DNA of 27,734 nucleotides, from the IMG/VR virus record IMGVR_UViG_3300023093_000072, positions 1 to 27,734 of that record. One strand, 5' to 3'. Shown here piece after piece: positions 1-19,027 of this stretch (position 1 is the stretch's first letter; each line of letters opens with the position of its first letter). A program made the position numbers and the translations under genes. The notes beneath the pieces were generated by a model. That model was not told the DNA's origin and did no database searches. It was given only the letters and a program-made list of their open reading frames with translations. The stretch is from a virus.

Positions 1-816
1 TTCTACAGTAGGTAGAGCTTCAAGTGTGTTTTCATCGAACCCGTTACCAACGTTGTTAGTAGATGAGTAAGGTGTACGCAGGTAAGTTTTACCGTTCCAG
101 TTAGACTTTTGGTTTAGATCAAACTCAGTGCCAGCTGGGTACGCTTTGATACCGTTACCAGTTTTAACTTCGACGAGCGTTGTACCACCAGCTTTAGCTC
201 GCATACGACGTGGTGCGTCCATTGCTTGCCAGCTTGGGTCAGCAGGTTTAGGTGGTTGAGGTGGGTTATTGATGTAGTTAACGATTGCATCACGTTGTTC
301 CATGATACGTGCAGGACAAGCAGTACCGAGTTGCGATACTTCGTGGTGACCTACAACTGCGGTTGTGCCACCAAGAGCTACGTCTTGCGGTCGCCAGAAT
401 GCAGCGATAACTTTATTGTCACCATCACGGAGAGTGTAGTTTCGGTAGTCACCGAGGTTTTCAATACCGATAGATCGAGTGTTGATGTCCCAGTTACCAG
501 CATGCCAAGTGATTTGACCGAATGGGTCGCTAATTAGAGGCACAAGACGGTACCCAGCGGCTCGCTCAGCATCAGTTGCGTCAGGAGTGCTACCATCTAC
601 TCGTTGCCCCGCAAAGTGGGCTTGTGAGTAAGAACGAGCGCCAGTGTAAGGGTTGATAAGACCAGACCAGTTACCAGCATTTGAACCGTAAGCACGAGCG
701 TACCCGTTGTCGCTAAACCATTGTGCGAGCCATGCTTTTGACTTTTCAGTCCAGAGAGGAGTCACCGCGTGGTGAAGAACGAGGTAATCTACCCTTTTTC
801 GGTTAACATCAGCCAT
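1..816 (-). CDS. N-acetylmuramoyl-L-alanine amidase endolysin (Amidase_2/PGRP fold), C-terminus cut by window edge
   Basis: This is a peptidoglycan amidase that would cleave the MurNAc-L-Ala bond at the end of infection; 272 residues are visible. The N-terminal part has the family pattern: a first zinc-ligand motif (YLVLHHAVTP, about residues 11-20), a central WHAGNWDINTRSIGIEN stretch, and a last motif GHHEVSQLGTACP supplying the distal His and Cys ligands. A proline-rich linker (NNPPQPPKP) leads to a C-terminal region (MRAKAG...GKTYLRTPYSS) that resembles the small SH3-like wall-binding tails of phage lysins. There is no signal peptide, so a holin would normally be needed, but none is seen in the window. 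The start codon overlaps the stop of the upstream 58-aa gene (TAATG), so the two are translationally coupled. The amidase call is secure; the binding-domain call is tentative. Confidence 0.88.
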   Translation of the reverse strand, partial: MADVNRKRVDYLVLHHAVTPLWTEKSKAWLAQWFSDNGYARAYGSNAGNWSGLINPYTGARSYSQAHFAGQRVDGSTPDATDAERAAGYRLVPLISDPFGQITWHAGNWDINTRSIGIENLGDYRNYTLRDGDNKVIAAFWRPQDVALGGTTAVVGHHEVSQLGTACPARIMEQRDAIVNYINNPPQPPKPADPSWQAMDAPRRMRAKAGGTTLVEVKTGNGIKAYPAGTEFDLNQKSNWNGKTYLRTPYSSTNNVGNGFDENTLEALPTVE

Positions 817-5593: not shown

Positions 5594-6010
5594 ATGAGTG
5601 AGATATATAGCGACAAAATAAAAACCCCGATTTATACGCCAACTGGCGATAAGCCACAAATCGACGAACTGGTCGACGACAAAAAGGTGCGCGACCTCAA
5701 CGAGCGTATTCGTTCATCAAATATACCGTCTGATATTCAAGTGTTCCTTCGCAAAGCTGCGACCCGACACTATGTCTATGACTACCGAAAAATCGCTGAG
5801 TATTATGCTCACGCACCTAAAGAAGTACAAGAACTATTCGAAGCGTCGCACCTCGTGATTATTGACTTTGACAAAGCAATCGAAGAGGGCTACGTTCAAA
5901 TGAATAAACGCCTTATGAGCGTACGATCAAAACAAACAAATTACGACAAAGAAATACATGGAAAACAAAAACTTCGTAGCACTGATACTGACCCACGGGC
6001 GACCGAATAA
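5594..6010 (+). CDS. Phage protein with conserved YYAHAP...VIIDFDKAI domain (138 aa)
   Basis: The conserved part is residues 45-110: a helical segment (VFLRKAATRHYVYDYRKIAE), then YYAHAPKEVQELFEASHLVI and IDFDKAIEEGYVQM. I associate this pattern with phage proteins near or fused to ParB-like/DNA-methylase genes, where its role is not established. The start at 5594 follows a TACAAT box by 10 nt without an RBS; the longer reading from 5540 would overlap the opposite gene's start. Its last 53 nt overlap the next gene in another frame. It is probably part of the DNA-modification or packaging module, by position only. Confidence 0.75.
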   Translation: MSEIYSDKIKTPIYTPTGDKPQIDELVDDKKVRDLNERIRSSNIPSDIQVFLRKAATRHYVYDYRKIAEYYAHAPKEVQELFEASHLVIIDFDKAIEEGYVQMNKRLMSVRSKQTNYDKEIHGKQKLRSTDTDPRATE

Positions 6011-6872
6011 CCAAGTCACCGTAAACACGCTCAAGCGTCACGGTTACACGGGTGATTGGAAGCTGGTCGTGGATGATGAAGACATAACATTACCCGAGTA
6101 CCGCAGAGTATGGGGCGATGATAAGGTCGTCACGTTTAGTAAGAATGAAATCGCAGAGCGGTTCGATGAAGTCGACAACTCAGGTGAACGTCGCACGATC
6201 TTTTACGCTCGCAACGCTTCGTTCGATATTGCCGAGAAGCTAGGGTATAAATATTTTATCCAGCTTGACGACGACTACGACAGTTTCAGGTGGCGAATGA
6301 ACGAGGAAATCGAATACTCATCACTTATGCTATCACCACTACCCGAAGAACAGACGCTCGATAAGGTTTTTGACATTATGCTCGAGTACTTCATATCAGT
6401 ACCGCTTATGTATTCACTCTGCATGGCGCAGTCTGGTGATTACATCGGTGGTGGCGGTTCTAAGATGGTAAGTGACCAATTCAGACGCAAGGTTATGAAC
6501 AGCTTCATTTGCTCAACAGACAGACGGTTCAACTTTGTCGGTCGTATCAACGAAGACGTAAACACCTACACGTCACTCGCGCACCAAGGTTTCTTGTTCT
6601 TGACGACAGCATTCATCGCACTCAACCAGAAGACTACCCAAACAAATACTGGCGGTATGTCTGAGATGTATAAATCGCTCGGTACATATACCAAGACCGC
6701 ATACACGATTATCACTCACCCGTCTGGTGCAAAGTTCTCGGTACTTTATAACACATCAGCGATCAAGGGCGCAGGTAAAGAGAAAGACAACAACGCGTTT
6801 CGCATTCATCACCGCATTAACTGGCGTAACACTGCACCTCTTATCCTTCGAGAAGAGCATAAGAAAGTATAA
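5958..6872 (+). CDS. TET-associated-type glycosyltransferase (TAGT-like), 304 aa
   Basis: The N-terminus FVALILTHGRPNNQVTVNTL, the strand KLVVDDED, and the acidic motif IQLDDDYDSFRW (about residues 101-112, a DxD-type metal/nucleotide-sugar site) match the phage TET-associated glycosyltransferase pattern. In some phages such enzymes glycosylate 5-hydroxymethylcytosine made by TET/JBP dioxygenases. No dioxygenase or other base-modifying enzyme is seen in this window, so the acceptor is open: modified DNA, or protein. The long overlap (53 nt) with the upstream gene is unusual, but later starts would remove the first beta strand. It lies directly upstream of the terminase genes. The fold call is fairly secure; the substrate is unknown. 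Confidence 0.72.
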   Translation: MENKNFVALILTHGRPNNQVTVNTLKRHGYTGDWKLVVDDEDITLPEYRRVWGDDKVVTFSKNEIAERFDEVDNSGERRTIFYARNASFDIAEKLGYKYFIQLDDDYDSFRWRMNEEIEYSSLMLSPLPEEQTLDKVFDIMLEYFISVPLMYSLCMAQSGDYIGGGGSKMVSDQFRRKVMNSFICSTDRRFNFVGRINEDVNTYTSLAHQGFLFLTTAFIALNQKTTQTNTGGMSEMYKSLGTYTKTAYTIITHPSGAKFSVLYNTSAIKGAGKEKDNNAFRIHHRINWRNTAPLILREEHKKV

Positions 6873-6886: not shown

Positions 6887-7462
6887 ATGAATAATCAACC
6901 CGACCAAAAACCCAAAGAGACCCCTGAAGAACGACGAGCCCGACTCATCGCTCAACTTGAACGTGGTCGCGAAATTGCAAAAGAAAAGAAAGAACTTATG
7001 GAAGCTGCGGGCATGGACCCGTCAGACTATCAACTAACAAAAGACGGTGACGTTGTGCAACGTAAACCATCGGTAAAAAACCTCTCAAAAATCGTGCAAG
7101 AAGTGCTTGCTGACCCTGAGTGGATTGACAAGGTGATTCGTAACCAGCCTGACTGGTGGCAAGGTCTACCTGTTAAAAATGCCGCATACATTATGACAAC
7201 CAGTATGATTACTATGGCTATGTCTGGTAACCTCAAGGCTGCTGACTGGGTTCGAAAGACTGGTTTCGGTGAAAAGGTAACAGTTGAAGCTGAAGACGAT
7301 TCATTCTTCGGTAAGCCAGACTTCACAATTCGTGTGGTCAACCCAACATACACCGTAGAGGAACTGCAGGGCGAAGAACCGAAATACATCGAATCGAACG
7401 CTTCTGAAATGATCGAAGAACACCTAGGCACCGAACTCGATGCAGAAGACGTTGAATCTTAA
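6887..7462 (+). CDS. terS: Terminase small subunit (probable), 191 aa
   Basis: The call rests on position and overall layout. The gene is immediately upstream of TerL, sharing TAATG with it, and the product has a charged N-terminal helix (ERRARLIAQLERGREIAKEK). The middle part is helical (LSKIVQEVLADPEWIDKVI; AAYIMTTSMITMAMSGNLKA), followed by KAADWVRKTGFGEKVTVE and a short beta tail (FTIRVVNP). The 'NLKAADWVRKTGFGEKV' stretch resembles the oligomerisation-to-tail junction of TerS proteins that bind the packaging site and present DNA to TerL. The acidic C-terminus (EEHLGTELDAEDVES) may contact TerL. The sequence alone is too variable for certainty. Confidence 0.72.
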   Translation: MNNQPDQKPKETPEERRARLIAQLERGREIAKEKKELMEAAGMDPSDYQLTKDGDVVQRKPSVKNLSKIVQEVLADPEWIDKVIRNQPDWWQGLPVKNAAYIMTTSMITMAMSGNLKAADWVRKTGFGEKVTVEAEDDSFFGKPDFTIRVVNPTYTVEELQGEEPKYIESNASEMIEEHLGTELDAEDVES

Positions 7463-8868
7463 TGGCAGATGTCGTATTTTCAGACGCGCAGTTGCTCGCT
7501 TATAACGAGTTCCTAAACCCTCAAAGTACCCGTATTCTTTATGGTGGTGGTGCGGGTGGTGGTAAGTCATTCTTTATATGTCTTATTGTTGCGCTTATGT
7601 CACGAAAGTACGCTGGTATACGTATTGGTCTAGCTCGAAAAGAGTTGATGAGCTTGCGTCAAACAACACTCTCGACGTTGCTCTCAAAGGTACACCCCGC
7701 TCTCGGTATCACCCAAGACGACTATGTTATTAACGGTCGCGAAAACTTTCTCGAATATCGTAACGGTTCGCGGGTTCAGTTTCTTGATCTAACTGCGAAG
7801 CCATCAGACCCTGACTTCGAAAGTCTCGGTTCACTTGAATTGACTATCGCACTTGTCGACGAGGCAGGTGAAACAGATAAGCGCGCAGTTGACGTGCTTT
7901 CTTCACGTGTAGGACGATGGATGAATCGTGAGTTTGGTCTAGTCGGCACAACCCTTCTCGCGTGTAACCCTTCAACTAACTGGCTTCGACAAGAGTTCTA
8001 TGACCCTTATGAAGAACGTGGCATGGGACCAGTGCAAAAGTGGGAAAACGGTGAAGTATGGGTAGACGGCACAAAGGTGCCAGCTTACGACGTATACATT
8101 CGTGCAACCGTAACATCGAACCCGTTCATCGACCCTAACTACATCGAAAACTTGAAGAAGCTACCGCCACAAGAACGCAAGCGTTTGCTTGATGGCGACT
8201 GGAACTATCTTGATGACGACGACTCGCTATTCCCAATGAAACTGCTGGATAAGGCAACGACGCTCCACCCAGACACGGACGAGCCAGAAGATGCGAAGTT
8301 CAACAAAGCAATCGGTGTCGACCTTTCAGACAGCGGTAAGGACGCAACTGTAGCTGTTCTCGTTGAAAACGGGGTTGCTACTAAGTCAGTTGAAATCAAA
8401 TCACCAAAAGGTAGCGACCAAGCAATCGGTCACGCCATCGCAGAGAAACTTATCGACTTTGCGCTCAAGAACGGGTTCACTCCCGCAGTTGCTAAGTACA
8501 TCACCATTGAGGGTAACGGTGTGGGGGCTTCTGCACGTGATGCCTTGCGTTCTAAGGGCTGGAAGGTAAATGTATACATCGCAACTCAACAGACCCGCTC
8601 AGACGGCTTCTACAACCTTATGCTCGATCTAGACTCTGGGCGTATGCGGTTGCTCGATGGGTCTAAAGACTTCAACGTATCAGAAGTTAAGAAAGAACTT
8701 ATTGCTCACACCTACGACCTCGACACAGGTAAAACTCGGGTGGTCAAGAAAAGCGTACTTCGCAAGAAAATCGGTCGGTCACCTGACTGGGCTGACGCGA
8801 TGATGATTGCTAACATGGCTTACAACGCGTTTAAACCAAAGCCTGTTGGCGCGTATATTAGGTGGTAG
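7462..8868 (+). CDS. terL: Terminase large subunit (packaging ATPase and nuclease), 468 aa
   Basis: It pumps DNA into procapsids and cuts it. The ATPase domain has a Walker A GGGAGGGKS (residues 28-36), a Walker B LTIALVDE (127-134) with catalytic Glu, and a coupling motif LLACNPSTNW (about 165-174). The RNase H-like nuclease domain begins with AIGVDLSDSGKDATVAVL (about 285-302), has a second acidic site in YITIEGNGVGASARDAL, and a third Asp in SPDWADAMMIANMAY near the C-terminus. Length is normal and all three acidic sites are present, so the protein is probably functional and uninterrupted. One base after its stop comes an intein-like gene in another frame. Confidence 0.95.
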   Translation: MADVVFSDAQLLAYNEFLNPQSTRILYGGGAGGGKSFFICLIVALMSRKYAGIRIGLARKELMSLRQTTLSTLLSKVHPALGITQDDYVINGRENFLEYRNGSRVQFLDLTAKPSDPDFESLGSLELTIALVDEAGETDKRAVDVLSSRVGRWMNREFGLVGTTLLACNPSTNWLRQEFYDPYEERGMGPVQKWENGEVWVDGTKVPAYDVYIRATVTSNPFIDPNYIENLKKLPPQERKRLLDGDWNYLDDDDSLFPMKLLDKATTLHPDTDEPEDAKFNKAIGVDLSDSGKDATVAVLVENGVATKSVEIKSPKGSDQAIGHAIAEKLIDFALKNGFTPAVAKYITIEGNGVGASARDALRSKGWKVNVYIATQQTRSDGFYNLMLDLDSGRMRLLDGSKDFNVSEVKKELIAHTYDLDTGKTRVVKKSVLRKKIGRSPDWADAMMIANMAYNAFKPKPVGAYIRW

Positions 8869-8869
8869 T

Positions 8870-9955
8870 ATGCTCACGCCCTCAAACAACCTCTTAACCG
8901 TCAACGGTTGGAAAAACGTTACCGAATTAAATGTAGGTGACGAGATTTTGACGACCAACTTCGCGGGTCACGGTATATTCTCCCCGATACTCAACATTAC
9001 AGAGTACGATTACGATGGATATATTTATGAACATGTGCATATCTTCAAACGACAGGGTGGTATTATCAGTCACTTTTCGCTTACCGAAGACAGCACGTTA
9101 CCCATTAGAAAGACGTTGTTTCGAAAGAGCGTTCTCACGGGTAACCGTATTGCGGTTGAACAAATCGACAATATCAAAATCAAAGACATCAAGAAGAATG
9201 TTCAAGCGATCGTCAAAAGCCCTCTACAATTCACGATGAAAGATAAGCGTCATCAAGCTGGTATCGTAAAAAACGGTTCAGTTGATATGAGCGAATCAGA
9301 ATACTTTACGCTACTTGCGTATGCAGTGCTAAGAGGCACGATCAAAAGCGATACCACGAGCCGTTCTACCTACACTATGTTCAGGGTACGAGAGAAAGAT
9401 GACCCGACACGTCTCATGGATTTGCTTGATCGCAACCGAATCGCGTATAGAACATCAAGTGCTGTGCGAAATGGCAGTCTCGAACGATTAGTAATACTTC
9501 GTAGTGGTGCGGGTGCGGCTCGCTCTTTAAAGCGGTTCATCGGTAAACGTATCTCGCAACGAACGATACCGAACGTAATTATGCGTTCAACTTCACCCGA
9601 CGCGGTTTATGCGTTCATTATAGAGTTCCTTCGTATCAAGAAACCCGAATGGGACTTTAGCAACGGTATACCTTCAAAAGGTCCACCGCTCGACTTTACC
9701 GTGAGCAATGTTGAACAAGCTGAACAGCTCGCAGACCTTTTCTTTAAGATTGGTTACCCAACAACAATAACTACAACAAGCTATTCTACACAGTTGGTTG
9801 TGAACCGTCCAAAGTTCGCTAGAATAAAGGTAGAGGACATTATCAAAAAGAAATACACTGGAAAGGTGTACGCAGTCGATGTCATCAATGAAATGGCAGT
9901 CTGCAACCCCACAAACCTCGGCCCCCGTTTTTCAATGGTGGTCAAAGTAAATTAG
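8870..9955 (+). CDS. Free-standing degenerate intein-like (HINT plus LAGLIDADG-like) protein, 361 aa
   Basis: The first residues (MLTPSNNLLTVNGWKNVTEL, then NVGDEILTTN) align by eye with intein block A, with the initiator Met in place of Cys1. The last residues (KVYAVDVINEMAV ... FSMVVKVN) resemble blocks F and G, ending exactly in Asn but without the usual penultimate His. Block B (LTEDSTLPI) lacks its His. The middle has two LAGLIDADG-like segments (YFTLLAYAVLRGTIKSD and VYAFIIEFLRIKKPEWDFS) without the acidic residues, plus NVEQAEQLADLFFKIGYP. There are no extein sequences. It starts 1 nt after TerL and stops just before the ParB-like gene. The homology call is by pattern only and needs a profile search; the function is unknown. 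Confidence 0.6.
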   Translation: MLTPSNNLLTVNGWKNVTELNVGDEILTTNFAGHGIFSPILNITEYDYDGYIYEHVHIFKRQGGIISHFSLTEDSTLPIRKTLFRKSVLTGNRIAVEQIDNIKIKDIKKNVQAIVKSPLQFTMKDKRHQAGIVKNGSVDMSESEYFTLLAYAVLRGTIKSDTTSRSTYTMFRVREKDDPTRLMDLLDRNRIAYRTSSAVRNGSLERLVILRSGAGAARSLKRFIGKRISQRTIPNVIMRSTSPDAVYAFIIEFLRIKKPEWDFSNGIPSKGPPLDFTVSNVEQAEQLADLFFKIGYPTTITTTSYSTQLVVNRPKFARIKVEDIIKKKYTGKVYAVDVINEMAVCNPTNLGPRFSMVVKVN

Positions 9956-9964
9956 GAGAAAATT

Positions 9965-10555
9965 ATGATTACAGTACACAACCCGACGAATCTACCACTC
10001 GTAAAAATTGGTGATGCAATACCCGTCCAGGGTGAATTAAAAGTGCTCACTCAAGAGAACTACGACAAGCTCAAACAATCAATTCTTAGCGACGGGTTCT
10101 ACCTACCGATCTTTGTCTGGAAGCACGATGGTGAAATCTATCTACTCGACGGCCACTCGCGACAAAAGGTCATGGAAAAAGAAGGTTGGGACGTTGAAGT
10201 ACCTTACGTGGCGGTTGAAGCTGAAGACTATGATGAAGCACGTCGCAAGATTTTGTACATCTCGTCACAGTACGGTGTCATCACAGAAGATGGCTTCAAT
10301 GACTTCGTAGTAGGCCTCGAGCACTTGGATATTTCGAACATACACTTTGACGCACTTGATTATACACTCGCAACTGACGCATTTGTGGACGTTAACGAAG
10401 AAGAAGACCAAGCTCTCGCAAGTATGGTTGATGAAAAAGAAAAAACCTACTCGCTTACCATTAAGGCTGCGGACGAAGAAACTATCCTTGAAATCAACGA
10501 TAGCATTCGAGACGTTCTCGACCAGTACAGCGGTATTAGCGTTCGGGTCAAGTAG
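9965..10555 (+). CDS. ParB/Srx-fold (ParB-like nuclease domain) protein, 196 aa
   Basis: The N-terminal domain shows the ParB signature: LVKIGDAIPVQGELKVLT, then ENYDKLKQSILSDGFYLPI and the nucleotide-binding loop YLLDGHSRQKVMEKEGW (about residues 59-75). In phages this domain often sits beside methylase or terminase genes and may bind CTP or cut DNA; it is not necessarily a partition protein. The C-terminal part is acidic (NEEEDQALASMVDEKEKTY) and ends with an alpha/beta module (TYSLTIKAADEETILEINDS). It has a good AGGAG site that overlaps the stop of the intein-like gene. It is the first of two ParB-like proteins in the window. Confidence 0.82.
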   Translation: MITVHNPTNLPLVKIGDAIPVQGELKVLTQENYDKLKQSILSDGFYLPIFVWKHDGEIYLLDGHSRQKVMEKEGWDVEVPYVAVEAEDYDEARRKILYISSQYGVITEDGFNDFVVGLEHLDISNIHFDALDYTLATDAFVDVNEEEDQALASMVDEKEKTYSLTIKAADEETILEINDSIRDVLDQYSGISVRVK

Positions 10556-10881
10556 TGAAAGCTACCGTCTGCAAATACTGCAAAGCGGTTGATAAGCACT
10601 ATTCATTTCAATGCTCGCAACGACCTCGCAAAGAGGTAGAAGCAAAACCACGCAAAGCAATCAAACAACGCGGTAAGCACTACGATCTGTGGCAAGAAGC
10701 TCGCAAAATCTTCGTGGCTAACAACCCTGATGCGAAGTGTTCGTTCTGTGGTAACCCCGCAACTGATGTTGACCATAAAATAAAACGAAGCGTTCGTCCT
10801 GACCTGCGGTATGTTCAAAGCAACCTGCAGTGGCTGTGTCGAAGGTGTCACAACCGTAAAGATAATGGTATTCAGCTATAA
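10555..10881 (+). CDS. HNH endonuclease (108 aa)
   Basis: The protein begins at a GTG that shares a base with the ParB-like stop. It has an N-terminal Cys pair (CKYC, residues 6-9) and a further Cys at 20. The HNH core follows: CSFC (62-65), the DVDHKIKR catalytic His strand (71-78), NLQW with the central Asn (90-93) and CRRCHNRK (95-102) carrying zinc ligands and the last His. HNH nucleases near terminase genes often assist TerL in cleaving packaged DNA, although those are usually beside TerS. A homing nuclease is the alternative. Confidence 0.88.
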   Translation: MKATVCKYCKAVDKHYSFQCSQRPRKEVEAKPRKAIKQRGKHYDLWQEARKIFVANNPDAKCSFCGNPATDVDHKIKRSVRPDLRYVQSNLQWLCRRCHNRKDNGIQL

Positions 10882-14948: not shown

Positions 14949-15608
14949 ATGGACGCGGTATATCTTTACAAGCATACAAACAGCGATGAGTTATTCTACT
15001 CGATTCGCTTGCTTCAGAAGTTCTACCCTGACCTAGGCACCATCTACGTTATCGGTGATCTGCCCCCAACAAGGCTTTACGGTGAAGTAGTCCATATTCT
15101 ACACCGCTCAATCGCAGGTAAGTTCGCTGACCAAATGCTCAAGTTCGCACTCGCAGTACGCATACCAGAGCTGACCGACCAGTTCATTCTTATGATGGAC
15201 GATGTCTATCTCACTGCACCTTTTGAGCCATACCGAATGTACGACCGTAAGTACCCAATGCTAAACGAGAAAATAAAATCTCGCGCTGATGACCCGTACC
15301 GCAAATCACTTATCAAGACGGACGTGTACCTGAAGCAAAATGACCTCGGTACCCGTAACTACGAACTCCACGTACCTGCTGTGATTGAAAAAGAGAAGGC
15401 GTTGTATATGACAAACAACCTCATCGACACGGATTTCGACCTGCAAATTAAAAGCCTGTACTTCAACTTCTACCCTTCGCTTGACGGGCTGGGTTCAGTG
15501 CCGTATGATGATGTTAAAAACATTAAAATCGAAGACGTTAATGCCTACTTATCGACAAGCAACGTAAAGTTCGCAAAATATAAGAAGTTCTTGGACCAAT
15601 TACTATGA
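14949..15608 (+). CDS. GT-A-type glycosyltransferase (Stealth/capsular-like), 219 aa
   Basis: The protein opens with MDAVYLYKHTNSDELFYSIR, then LLQKFYPDLGTIYVIGDLPP, the typical 'Ser-Ile-Arg ... Val-Ile-Gly-Asp' Rossmann-like start. It then has DQFILMMDDVYLTAPFE (about residues 78-94), where the DD pair is the metal/nucleotide-sugar site. The length is that of a minimal single-domain enzyme. It overlaps the next glycosyltransferase (ATGA), and a sugar methyltransferase follows. The acceptor may be a virion protein, DNA or cell-surface glycan; sequence does not tell. The glycosyltransferase fold is likely, the exact family less so. Confidence 0.68.
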   Translation: MDAVYLYKHTNSDELFYSIRLLQKFYPDLGTIYVIGDLPPTRLYGEVVHILHRSIAGKFADQMLKFALAVRIPELTDQFILMMDDVYLTAPFEPYRMYDRKYPMLNEKIKSRADDPYRKSLIKTDVYLKQNDLGTRNYELHVPAVIEKEKALYMTNNLIDTDFDLQIKSLYFNFYPSLDGLGSVPYDDVKNIKIEDVNAYLSTSNVKFAKYKKFLDQLL

Positions 15609-16999
15609 ATGAACCAGTAGTCGGGGTTGCAATATCAACCTACAAAAGACCAGATGTTTTCAAGAAAACATACAAAGAAATTAAAAAGTATCTACCAAAA
15701 GGTGCCGTACTTGTCGTTGTATCAGATCACGATGAAAATGCACCAAAAGAAGCTGACTACGTTTTCCCTGAACGGGGTGGCGTTGCAAGGGTTAAAAACA
15801 AATGTCTCGAACTTCTCGAAGAACGCGGTGCGACCGATTTCTTCCTTTTCGATGACGACACATACCCAAAGGTGAAAGACTGGTCGAAACCTTACGTCGA
15901 TAGCGAAGAACCTCACTTGATGTACCAGTTTCGGGAGTTCGCAAATAACCCAGCGAAACAACTCACCGATATGCTTGAAATATACCGCGACAGCACGATT
16001 GTTGCGTACTCGCATACTCGCGGTTGTATGATTTACGCTAATAAGGTAGTGCTTGAAAAAGTGGGTGGCTTAGACCCCCGATTCGGTATCTCGATGTTCG
16101 AACACACCGCATGGACTAACCGCATCTTCAATGCTGGCCTTACTACGTTCAGAGCAATGGACGTACCCGATAGTTCGAAACTGATCTACAGCATGGACGA
16201 ATACCAAGAGGTTTCAAGCTCAATCGAACAGCAAGCACGACGAACTGGTCTCGCGAACAACGCGAAATTGTACCGCGAATCGCTAAAATCCAGCGAATAC
16301 ATTGATTACCGAGAAGTTAAGAAGTCTGACAGTGCAGGAATGAACAACATAATTATTGCTTCTTACTTTACTTCGCACGAAGACCCTCAACGCAAGGTGA
16401 ACTGGTCAGCAGACTACAGCGCGATGAAGCCGCTTATTGATTCATTGCAGGGTGAAAAGCTAGTGCTTCTGCACGACTGCTTCGACGAGCCCGATACTGA
16501 GCAGGTGACGCACATAAAAGTTGAAAGCGTGTTGAACCCGTACTTCCAGCGGTGGCTCAGCATTTATCGCTACCTGAAACAACACCCCGAAATTGATAAT
16601 GTTTTCTGTGTAGATTCAACCGATGTCGAGGTGGTCAATAACCCATTCAGAGATATGCAACCTGGAAAGATTTATTCTGGTATCGAGCAGGGTGTGCCTT
16701 CACAAAGTAGATGGTTGCGACAACACTCAACCGTTGAACCATATCGCACTTTCACCGCGCGAAACCGCCAGCATATACTCAACTGCGGTGTAGTTGGTGG
16801 CTCTCGCGAAGACATTATCGACATTTGTAGGGGTATTTACACCCGATACTTCGATAGCGGTAAGAAAATCACAGTCGAAATGCCGATTTATGGCTTTTTA
16901 CTGCGAACCTTCTACGCTGGCAGGGTTATCACTGCGGGTGTCACAAATCAATTCAAGTCGTTCAAGTCAGATGGCACCGAACGATTCAAACATAAATAG
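15605..16999 (+). CDS. Two-domain glycosyltransferase (464 aa)
   Basis: The N-terminal half is a family-2-like GT-A domain: VVGVAISTYKRPDVFKKTYK, then ADYVFPERGGVARVKNKCLE and FFLFDDDTYPKV (about residues 79-90, DxD-type site), and later GGLDPRFGISMFEHTAWTNR. From about residue 245 a second domain starts (MNNIIIASYFTSHEDPQRKV), with VLLHDCFDE and FCVDSTDVEVV (about 332-342), again a DxD-type motif, followed by GKIYSGIEQG. Such two-domain enzymes occur in phages, including actinophages whose virions are glycosylated. It may add two sugars in turn; this is inference. It is part of the same transcript as its neighbours. Confidence 0.8.
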   Translation: MNEPVVGVAISTYKRPDVFKKTYKEIKKYLPKGAVLVVVSDHDENAPKEADYVFPERGGVARVKNKCLELLEERGATDFFLFDDDTYPKVKDWSKPYVDSEEPHLMYQFREFANNPAKQLTDMLEIYRDSTIVAYSHTRGCMIYANKVVLEKVGGLDPRFGISMFEHTAWTNRIFNAGLTTFRAMDVPDSSKLIYSMDEYQEVSSSIEQQARRTGLANNAKLYRESLKSSEYIDYREVKKSDSAGMNNIIIASYFTSHEDPQRKVNWSADYSAMKPLIDSLQGEKLVLLHDCFDEPDTEQVTHIKVESVLNPYFQRWLSIYRYLKQHPEIDNVFCVDSTDVEVVNNPFRDMQPGKIYSGIEQGVPSQSRWLRQHSTVEPYRTFTARNRQHILNCGVVGGSREDIIDICRGIYTRYFDSGKKITVEMPIYGFLLRTFYAGRVITAGVTNQFKSFKSDGTERFKHK

Positions 17000-17011
17000 A
17001 AAAGAGAGAAA

Positions 17012-17527
17012 ATGGCTGGAGTTTCAGATTTCGAAAACAAACATATTATTAGACAGTGGCTTCTAGATCACGAAGATGATTTCAAAACCGTGCTCGACAT
17101 TGGTGCGGGTGTGGGTACATATTCGCTAATGGGTCGTATGCCCTCTCAGCACTGGACCGCGCTCGAGGTTTTTGAGCCGTACGTTGAGATGTTCAACCTT
17201 GAAAATAAATACAATGAAGTAATTGTCGAAGACGCTCGAACTCACGAGTATAAAGACTACGATCTTATCATTGCGGCAGATATGATTGAGCACATGGAAA
17301 AAGAAGAAGCAAAAACCCTCATTAAAAAACTGATTGAGCATTCAAAAACGTTGCTGATTTGCTTCCCTGTGATTCACCACGACCAACACGCAGGAGCCGA
17401 AGGTAATGATTTTGAGACACACGTTGACCATTGGGACGTAGAAGAGATGGACGATTTCTTGGCTGATAACGATTTCACTTCTATCGTTGGTGAAGTCTGC
17501 GCTTACTACCACGTTAGCAAACCCTAA
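17012..17527 (+). CDS. Class I SAM-dependent methyltransferase (171 aa)
   Basis: It has motif I VLDIGAGVGTY (about residues 27-37), an acidic end of strand 2 (ALEVFEPYVEMFN), a motif III region (VIVEDARTHEYKDYD), and LIIAADMIEHM followed by LLICFPVIHH. It has no DNA-methyltransferase DPPY/NPPF or target-recognition region, so the substrate is more likely a small molecule, sugar or protein. It lies 12 nt after the two-domain glycosyltransferase, with a GAGAG site. O-methylation of an attached sugar is the natural guess from context. Confidence 0.85.
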   Translation: MAGVSDFENKHIIRQWLLDHEDDFKTVLDIGAGVGTYSLMGRMPSQHWTALEVFEPYVEMFNLENKYNEVIVEDARTHEYKDYDLIIAADMIEHMEKEEAKTLIKKLIEHSKTLLICFPVIHHDQHAGAEGNDFETHVDHWDVEEMDDFLADNDFTSIVGEVCAYYHVSKP

Positions 17528-18490: not shown

Positions 18491-19027
18491 ATGGGTAAAA
18501 AGTTAACTGGTAACCCACATATCATCAAAAACGGGGTTTGCACCCTGTTTTTGTTAGATAAAGACGGTAAGGTACGCGCTAAGACAATCGTAGACGAAGA
18601 TGACGCTGAGCGTGTCTTAAAACGTCGCTGGTTAGTCGGTAGAAGCGGGTATGCAATCACAGTCGCTGGTGAGAAACAAATTGGTCTGCACAACTTCATT
18701 ATGAATAGTCAGATGATCGACCACAAAAGCGGCAACCGTTTCGACAACCGAAAGGTAAATCTGCGAAAGGTGACTCGACAGCAGAATGCACAGAATGTCG
18801 CCATCGGTAAGCAGAACACTTCTGGCTATAAAGGAGTCTCGTGGGACTCACGCCTTAACAAGTGGGCTGTGTTTATTCAAATCCCTGGTGCAAAGATCAA
18901 GCGGGTTTGGGCAGATGACGACCCGATACAAGCCGCGTACATCTACGACCAATGGGCTATGCAATTATTTGGTGAGTTCGCCCGCACCAACTTTCAATAC
19001 AACAACGAAAAAGAGACCAGCCCGTAG
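18491..19027 (+). CDS. HNH endonuclease with AP2-like domain (homing type), 178 aa
   Basis: The HNH core is in IGLHNFIMNSQMIDHKSGNR, followed by DNRKVNLRKVTRQQNAQN (catalytic His and Asn, residues 67-101). An AP2-like DNA-binding domain follows: TSGYKGVSWDSRLNKWAVFI, and QAAYIYDQWAMQLFGEFA at the end (about 110-163). This HNH/AP2 combination is the standard free-standing phage homing endonuclease. It has an AGGA site, its own start after a 39-nt gap, and ends within a terminator, so it looks like an inserted cassette. Its likely target is an uninserted copy of this site. Confidence 0.92.
   Translation: MGKKLTGNPHIIKNGVCTLFLLDKDGKVRAKTIVDEDDAERVLKRRWLVGRSGYAITVAGEKQIGLHNFIMNSQMIDHKSGNRFDNRKVNLRKVTRQQNAQNVAIGKQNTSGYKGVSWDSRLNKWAVFIQIPGAKIKRVWADDDPIQAAYIYDQWAMQLFGEFARTNFQYNNEKETSP

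Follow-up and report, generated by a model that had tools for sequence, protein, structure and literature searches.

Inteins are usually viewed as selfish elements that either splice or die. To our knowledge, the known stand-alone genes derived from inteins belong to the yeast HO/WHO family, whose members have retained DNA cleavage. These yeast genes are free of exteins, do not splice and keep a zinc finger besides the cutting activity, and WHO is seated beside an essential gene, FBA1 (PMC7282813). A LAGLIDADG domain retained without its catalytic residues is known from the transcription factor DUF199/WhiA, in which it is accompanied by a C-terminal HTH and no HINT domain, and by itself gives no footprint (PMC3781837). 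The Arth_1007 intein pseudogene of Arthrobacter FB24, of phage origin and with only 66 extein residues, has been shown not to splice; it lacks the block B His and the block F Cys, and the splicing failure accompanied this loss (PMC3196547). This was the only paper on orphan, free-standing or remnant inteins retrieved from the full-text literature, mostly outside subscription journals. Among phages, LAGLIDADG inteins are found in portal, terminase, NrdA and methylase proteins (e.g., Gordonia Woes portal, GMA6 TerL and Shivani NrdA). Here we describe, in a stretch of viral DNA of 27,734 nucleotides (IMG/VR record IMGVR_UViG_3300023093_000072; hereafter, the window), an intein homologue without exteins, referred to as the orphan, which directly follows the gene of the terminase large subunit TerL (Table 1).

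The orphan ORF extends from the ATG at 8870 to the stop TAG at 9953-9955 (361 codons plus stop), with its start one base past the TAG (8866-8868) that ends TerL; relative to that gene, the orphan is read in the +1 frame. We found five IMG/VR contigs carrying the orphan with 83-100% identity, in all cases right after TerL. The junction reads TAG-T-ATG in the window and L002, and TAA-C-GTG in L003, L004 and L005, so that the one-base spacing is maintained across the five contigs despite differing start and stop codons. The position of the SD-like AGGTGG is consistent with a putative coupled re-initiation of the orphan after TerL. A +1 frameshift fusion of the orphan to TerL was rejected, since the stop switches between TAG and TAA, in contrast to the conserved start codon, SD and spacing. 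A 36-row profile search showed one orphan copy per relative genome record, and no second intein was detected with PF14890 over the whole relative genomes. No relatives of the orphan turned up in the phage-record, plasmid and prokaryote-genome collections. In six annotated phages, other genes follow TerL, the portal gene in four of them. The sampling of the orphan comprises only four lineages, on contigs with similar sample numbers, possibly from one region.

Table 1. Features of the orphan locus in the window.
Feature	Position	Strand	Remarks
Terminase large subunit TerL, uninterrupted	7462..8868	+	PHROG phrog_2 E 4.9e-31; tblastn to Bacteroidota phage TerLs
SD-like AGGTGG	8860..8865	+	Within last TerL codons, 4 nt 5' of orphan ATG; kept in four relatives
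Extein-less stand-alone intein homologue, 361 aa (HINT-N + LAGLIDADG + HINT-C)	8870..9955	+	hhalign, AlphaFold, structure matches
HINT N-terminal half, residues 1-114	8870..9211	+	Start codon for Cys1; block B T72-E-D-S75 for TxxH
Degenerate LAGLIDADG domain, residues 141-312	9290..9805	+	R155 at motif-1 acid; hypervariable
HINT C-terminal half, residues 313-361	9806..9952	+	A335 for block F Cys; Asn361 kept
ParB-like protein (neighbour)	9965..10555	+	PHROGs phrog_723, phrog_620
Small HNH endonuclease (neighbour)	10555..10881	+	Pfam PF01844 E 1.3e-7; phrog_144 E 8.6e-13

Scans of the single protein against Pfam, PHROGs and NCBIfam gave only sub-threshold matches to Intein_splicing (E 0.009-0.09) and Hint (E 0.08-0.2). 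As these were only suggestive, profile-profile comparison was used. The five-sequence orphan profile found nothing relevant among PDB sequences. When compared by hhalign with 11 phage inteins, the orphan family matched over its whole length (probability 98.5-99.3%, score 104-110). Against the best score of 109.7, 100 column shuffles reached no more than 22.9, the reversed family 17.6 and six other window proteins at most 17.2; true inteins left out one by one scored 105-252. Residues 1-130 alone matched inteins at 97.4% and the middle alone at 75.6%, and the short C-terminal part alone stayed below significance. In both sequence and structure alignments, residue 1 of the orphan aligns to residue 1 of inteins and Asn361 to the terminal intein Asn, bearing out the claim of an earlier note, made from the sequence alone, that the ORF starts at block A with Met in place of Cys1 and ends on the terminal Asn. 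The fold, order and length of the orphan are those of the phage LAGLIDADG inteins, with which it shares the block A, B, F and G positions. It differs from them in having its own start codon and no exteins, as it starts at residue 1 and ends after Asn361, whereas each of the 31 related viral inteins is flanked by exteins at both ends (one of them clipped by its contig end). These data show that the orphan is a full-length intein homologue, in which two splicing halves enclose a two-motif LAGLIDADG domain. The C-terminal CNPTNL was considered as a C-extein remnant of TerL CNPSTN and rejected, as in the 36-sequence alignment it forms an inserted hairpin ahead of the terminal Asn; an L007-type intein has a hairpin of similar length at this site. 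The NPTNL of the orphan end (VCNPTNL, 9899-9919) also occurs at the start of the ParB-like protein (VHNPTNL, 9965-9991), probably by chance, and the VHN at that start resembles an intein end.

A first AlphaFold model, built with the five orphan sequences only, had a pLDDT of 42 and already gave the LAGLIDADG-type element order in residues 142-311. With 31 viral inteins added, pLDDT rose to 79 and pTM to 0.76; being informed by the intein rows, this second model provides support and no independent proof. The best solved structures matched by Foldseek were TliVMA, PhoVMA, PI-SceI and PI-PfuI (E 1e-12 to 5e-9). VIA-align gave Z 20-23 against TliVMA, PI-PfuI and PI-SceI with model residues 1 to 360 aligned end to end, and the model superposes over 1..360 on crystal intein residues 1..371. 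The predicted HINT fold is built from the N- and C-terminal segments, and residues 141-312 are modelled as a two-repeat alpha-beta-beta LAGLIDADG fold with matches to I-DmoI at E about 1e-5. Both folds for which the earlier note had proposed a search were thus found, and neither a missing HINT fold nor a match to another phage family, which it had named as counter-evidence, was seen. The best matches among viral structures are longer proteins, many annotated as intein hosts or Hint proteins; among the 50 listed, none is both free-standing and of a length like that of the orphan (target-normalised TM <=0.54). No free-standing phage equivalent of the orphan was found among these 50 structures or in the literature, mostly outside subscription journals.

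To identify lost catalytic residues, the 31 related viral inteins served as reference; most were fetched with patterns containing Cys1, which biases the count for Cys1, and the other catalytic columns were absent from the patterns. Cys1, the block B His and the block F Cys are each present in all 31 inteins, and are replaced in the orphan by the start codon (Met or GTG in the orphans), Ser75 and Ala335 (nt 9872-9874), respectively. The motif-1 acid, present in 28 of the 29 inteins having the column, is Arg155 (nt 9332-9334); for the motif-2 Asp (31/31), the orphan has no counterpart, its helix ending F-L-R-I-K-K in a gapped, uncertain alignment. The replacements of Cys1, the block B His, the block F Cys and the motif-1 acid are common to every orphan relative. 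T72, G156 and N361 are retained, the last being also the terminal Asn of all 31 inteins and the only splicing residue kept. The earlier note had correctly listed the block B His and the LAGLIDADG acids as absent, and missed the loss of the block F Cys. It had also counted the absent penultimate His as a sign of dead splicing; the residue is indeed absent, but this is not diagnostic, because Gly occupies the position in 30 of the 31 related inteins. The motifs T-x-N-H-R-W, V-W-C and T-G-N are frequent among the control inteins and recall the W-C-T signature of class 3. The orphan lacks the W-C-T residues, so that it cannot take the Cys1-independent class 3 route either. Judged from these residues, the orphan cannot splice, and its nuclease chemistry is very probably lost. 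It descends from an intein but, with no exteins and no active site, is not classed as a splicing intein. The non-splicing Arth_1007 intein is likewise devoid of the block B His and the block F Cys (PMC3196547). As a separate observation, L205-L239 form a broad viral intein family in which Cys1 occurs together with the class 3-like signature (HRW, VWC, TGN).

We assessed selection on the orphan by comparing the window with its relatives. The dN/dS values were 0.111 (L003), 0.037 (L002) and 0.113 (L005), at dS of 0.55, 0.65 and 1.06, respectively, and the frame contains no indels and no stops in the four lineages. In contrast, all 2000 neutral simulations acquired stops (mean 6.5-9.7). These results show that the orphan is under purifying selection and is not decaying, in agreement with the proposal of the earlier note that the intact frame was kept for another job, for which it had suggested dN/dS across relatives as a check. 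By part, dN/dS was about 0-0.1 for the HINT halves and about 0.04-0.14 for the LAGLIDADG part where dS was estimable, and the constraint on the splicing-domain ends was about equal to that on TerL. Variable residues numbered 18/114 in HINT-N, 56/172 in the LAGLIDADG part and 1/49 in HINT-C. Within the LAGLIDADG part, 43% of strand residues varied as against 23% of helix residues, and K+R exceeded D+E by 25 to 17.

Nucleotide identity of the window to L002, L003 and L005 was 62-89% over about 9200-9800, in comparison with mostly 90-98% outside, and synonymous divergence was likewise raised in the LAGLIDADG segment. Exchange of divergent segments is therefore likely, and the pattern suggests a possible allele exchange of the LAGLIDADG domain alone between lineages. 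Phylogenetically informative sites divided 33:3:0 in the TerL 3' half versus 13:16:11 in the LAGLIDADG part, indicating recombination between the two, which argues against hitchhiking.

We lean slightly towards the reading that the orphan is a former intein, co-translated with TerL and retained as a protein that does not cut DNA and probably binds it. A complete LAGLIDADG-bearing intein would have shed its exteins along with the chemistry of splicing and, very probably, that of the nuclease, and the 361-aa protein would be translated independently, probably by coupled re-initiation after TerL. The LAGLIDADG beta-sheet saddle may contact a site in phage DNA sequence-specifically, with allelic saddle variants swapped between lineages, and the near-invariant HINT body may be a scaffold or a partner-binding surface. 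Made along with TerL, the orphan could act as a late-gene or packaging regulator or as a site occluder. We hold the fuller version more tentatively, at a little short of an even chance: here the whole intein, domesticated by the phage, would serve in the packaging operon as a free-standing protein that binds DNA but neither splices nor cuts, its HINT scaffold near-invariant and the specificity saddle on it exchangeable.

DNA binding by the orphan, which we put at about even odds, is inferred by analogy because of the fold, the basic excess and the concentration of variability in the strands; the strand variation could alternatively reflect relaxed constraint. The modelled LAGLIDADG domain resembles that of WhiA (Z 13.2 over 163 residues), likewise devoid of catalytic residues. 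However, the orphan ends in a HINT half with no HTH seen, in contrast to WhiA, and the lack of a footprint by the WhiA domain alone counts against DNA binding by the orphan (PMC3781837).

The strongest rival to DNA binding, though we consider it unlikely, is that the ex-intein was retained for contact with a protein partner such as TerL, HNH or ParB, the HINT fold being functional and the LAGLIDADG domain tolerated. The HINT halves are the most conserved parts, above all HINT-C, and the start geometry is tied to TerL, as such a role would have it. Mini-inteins are known to lose the LAGLIDADG domain. In the orphan, however, this domain is undeleted and is itself under purifying selection.

An intein-derived homing unit beside TerL, the phage counterpart of yeast WHO, that spreads by cutting alleles without it seems improbable to us. 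The orphan, a HINT-LAGLIDADG gene that stands by itself after the essential TerL gene in the five contigs, matches the architecture and position of WHO beside FBA1 (PMC7282813); its LAGLIDADG segment recombines independently of the flanks, and the HNH nuclease two genes downstream could supply the cutting. However, every relative has Arg in place of the motif-1 acid and nothing acidic fits motif 2, and the orphan, from a different domain of life, ends at HINT-C without the zinc finger of the yeast proteins and appears to lack their active endonuclease. Moreover, all close relatives carry the orphan with no empty alleles found among them, the informative sites of the TerL 3' end do not follow those of the orphan, and no duplications of TerL fragments were noticed near the orphan, although there was no systematic search.

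The suggestion of the earlier note that the orphan may be a recently ejected TerL intein did not hold up, and we regard it as very doubtful. In its favour, the orphan lies next to TerL, which does carry inteins in other viruses (L008-L012, L106, GMA6 and Cantare). However, the extein-less dead form cannot be recent, because it is common to lineages separated by roughly one synonymous substitution per site. Its own TerL is intact, and the proposed search of TerL homologues for a similar intein detected no related element by HMM in the loci of 77 homologues (~30% identity), some of them cut by contig ends. The tree, in which the orphan has a long branch, gave NrdA and TerL inteins as weak neighbours (support <0.65) and no reliable placement with the TerL inteins. 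The TerL inteins of L008 (4980-5936), L009-L012, L106 and L107 lie immediately in front of (T)ANP, a conserved motif of TerL, and extend from C1 to GN with the LAGLIDADG acids intact.

A dying pseudo-element linked to TerL, with decay still pending, is scarcely tenable: catalytic residues are lost and the Arth_1007 intein shows that such relics exist (PMC3196547), but that is a single decayed case, whereas the orphan, with zero extein residues, is under strong purifying selection in four lineages, its frame free of stops as in no neutral simulation, and recombination separates it from TerL.

Retention of the orphan as a non-cutting protein suggests that a selfish element was recruited to a new job. 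If this is true, an entire intein fold has been selected after the loss of both activities, which would be a further route of recruitment. It would also allow roles of the HINT fold other than splicing to be asked about directly, and the orphans are a natural source of catalytically dead intein folds.

Other genes of the same phage were also noted. A TET-associated glycosyltransferase (TAGT) gene (5958-6872; PF20691 E 3e-32) lies just upstream of the terminase genes and hints at possibly hypermodified phage DNA. Genes for a Stealth-like protein, a glycosyltransferase (phrog_1579 E 1e-123) and a methyltransferase are clustered at 14949-17527, and an HNH + AP2-domain endonuclease (phrog_99) at 18491-19027 is a typical free-standing homing-type gene.
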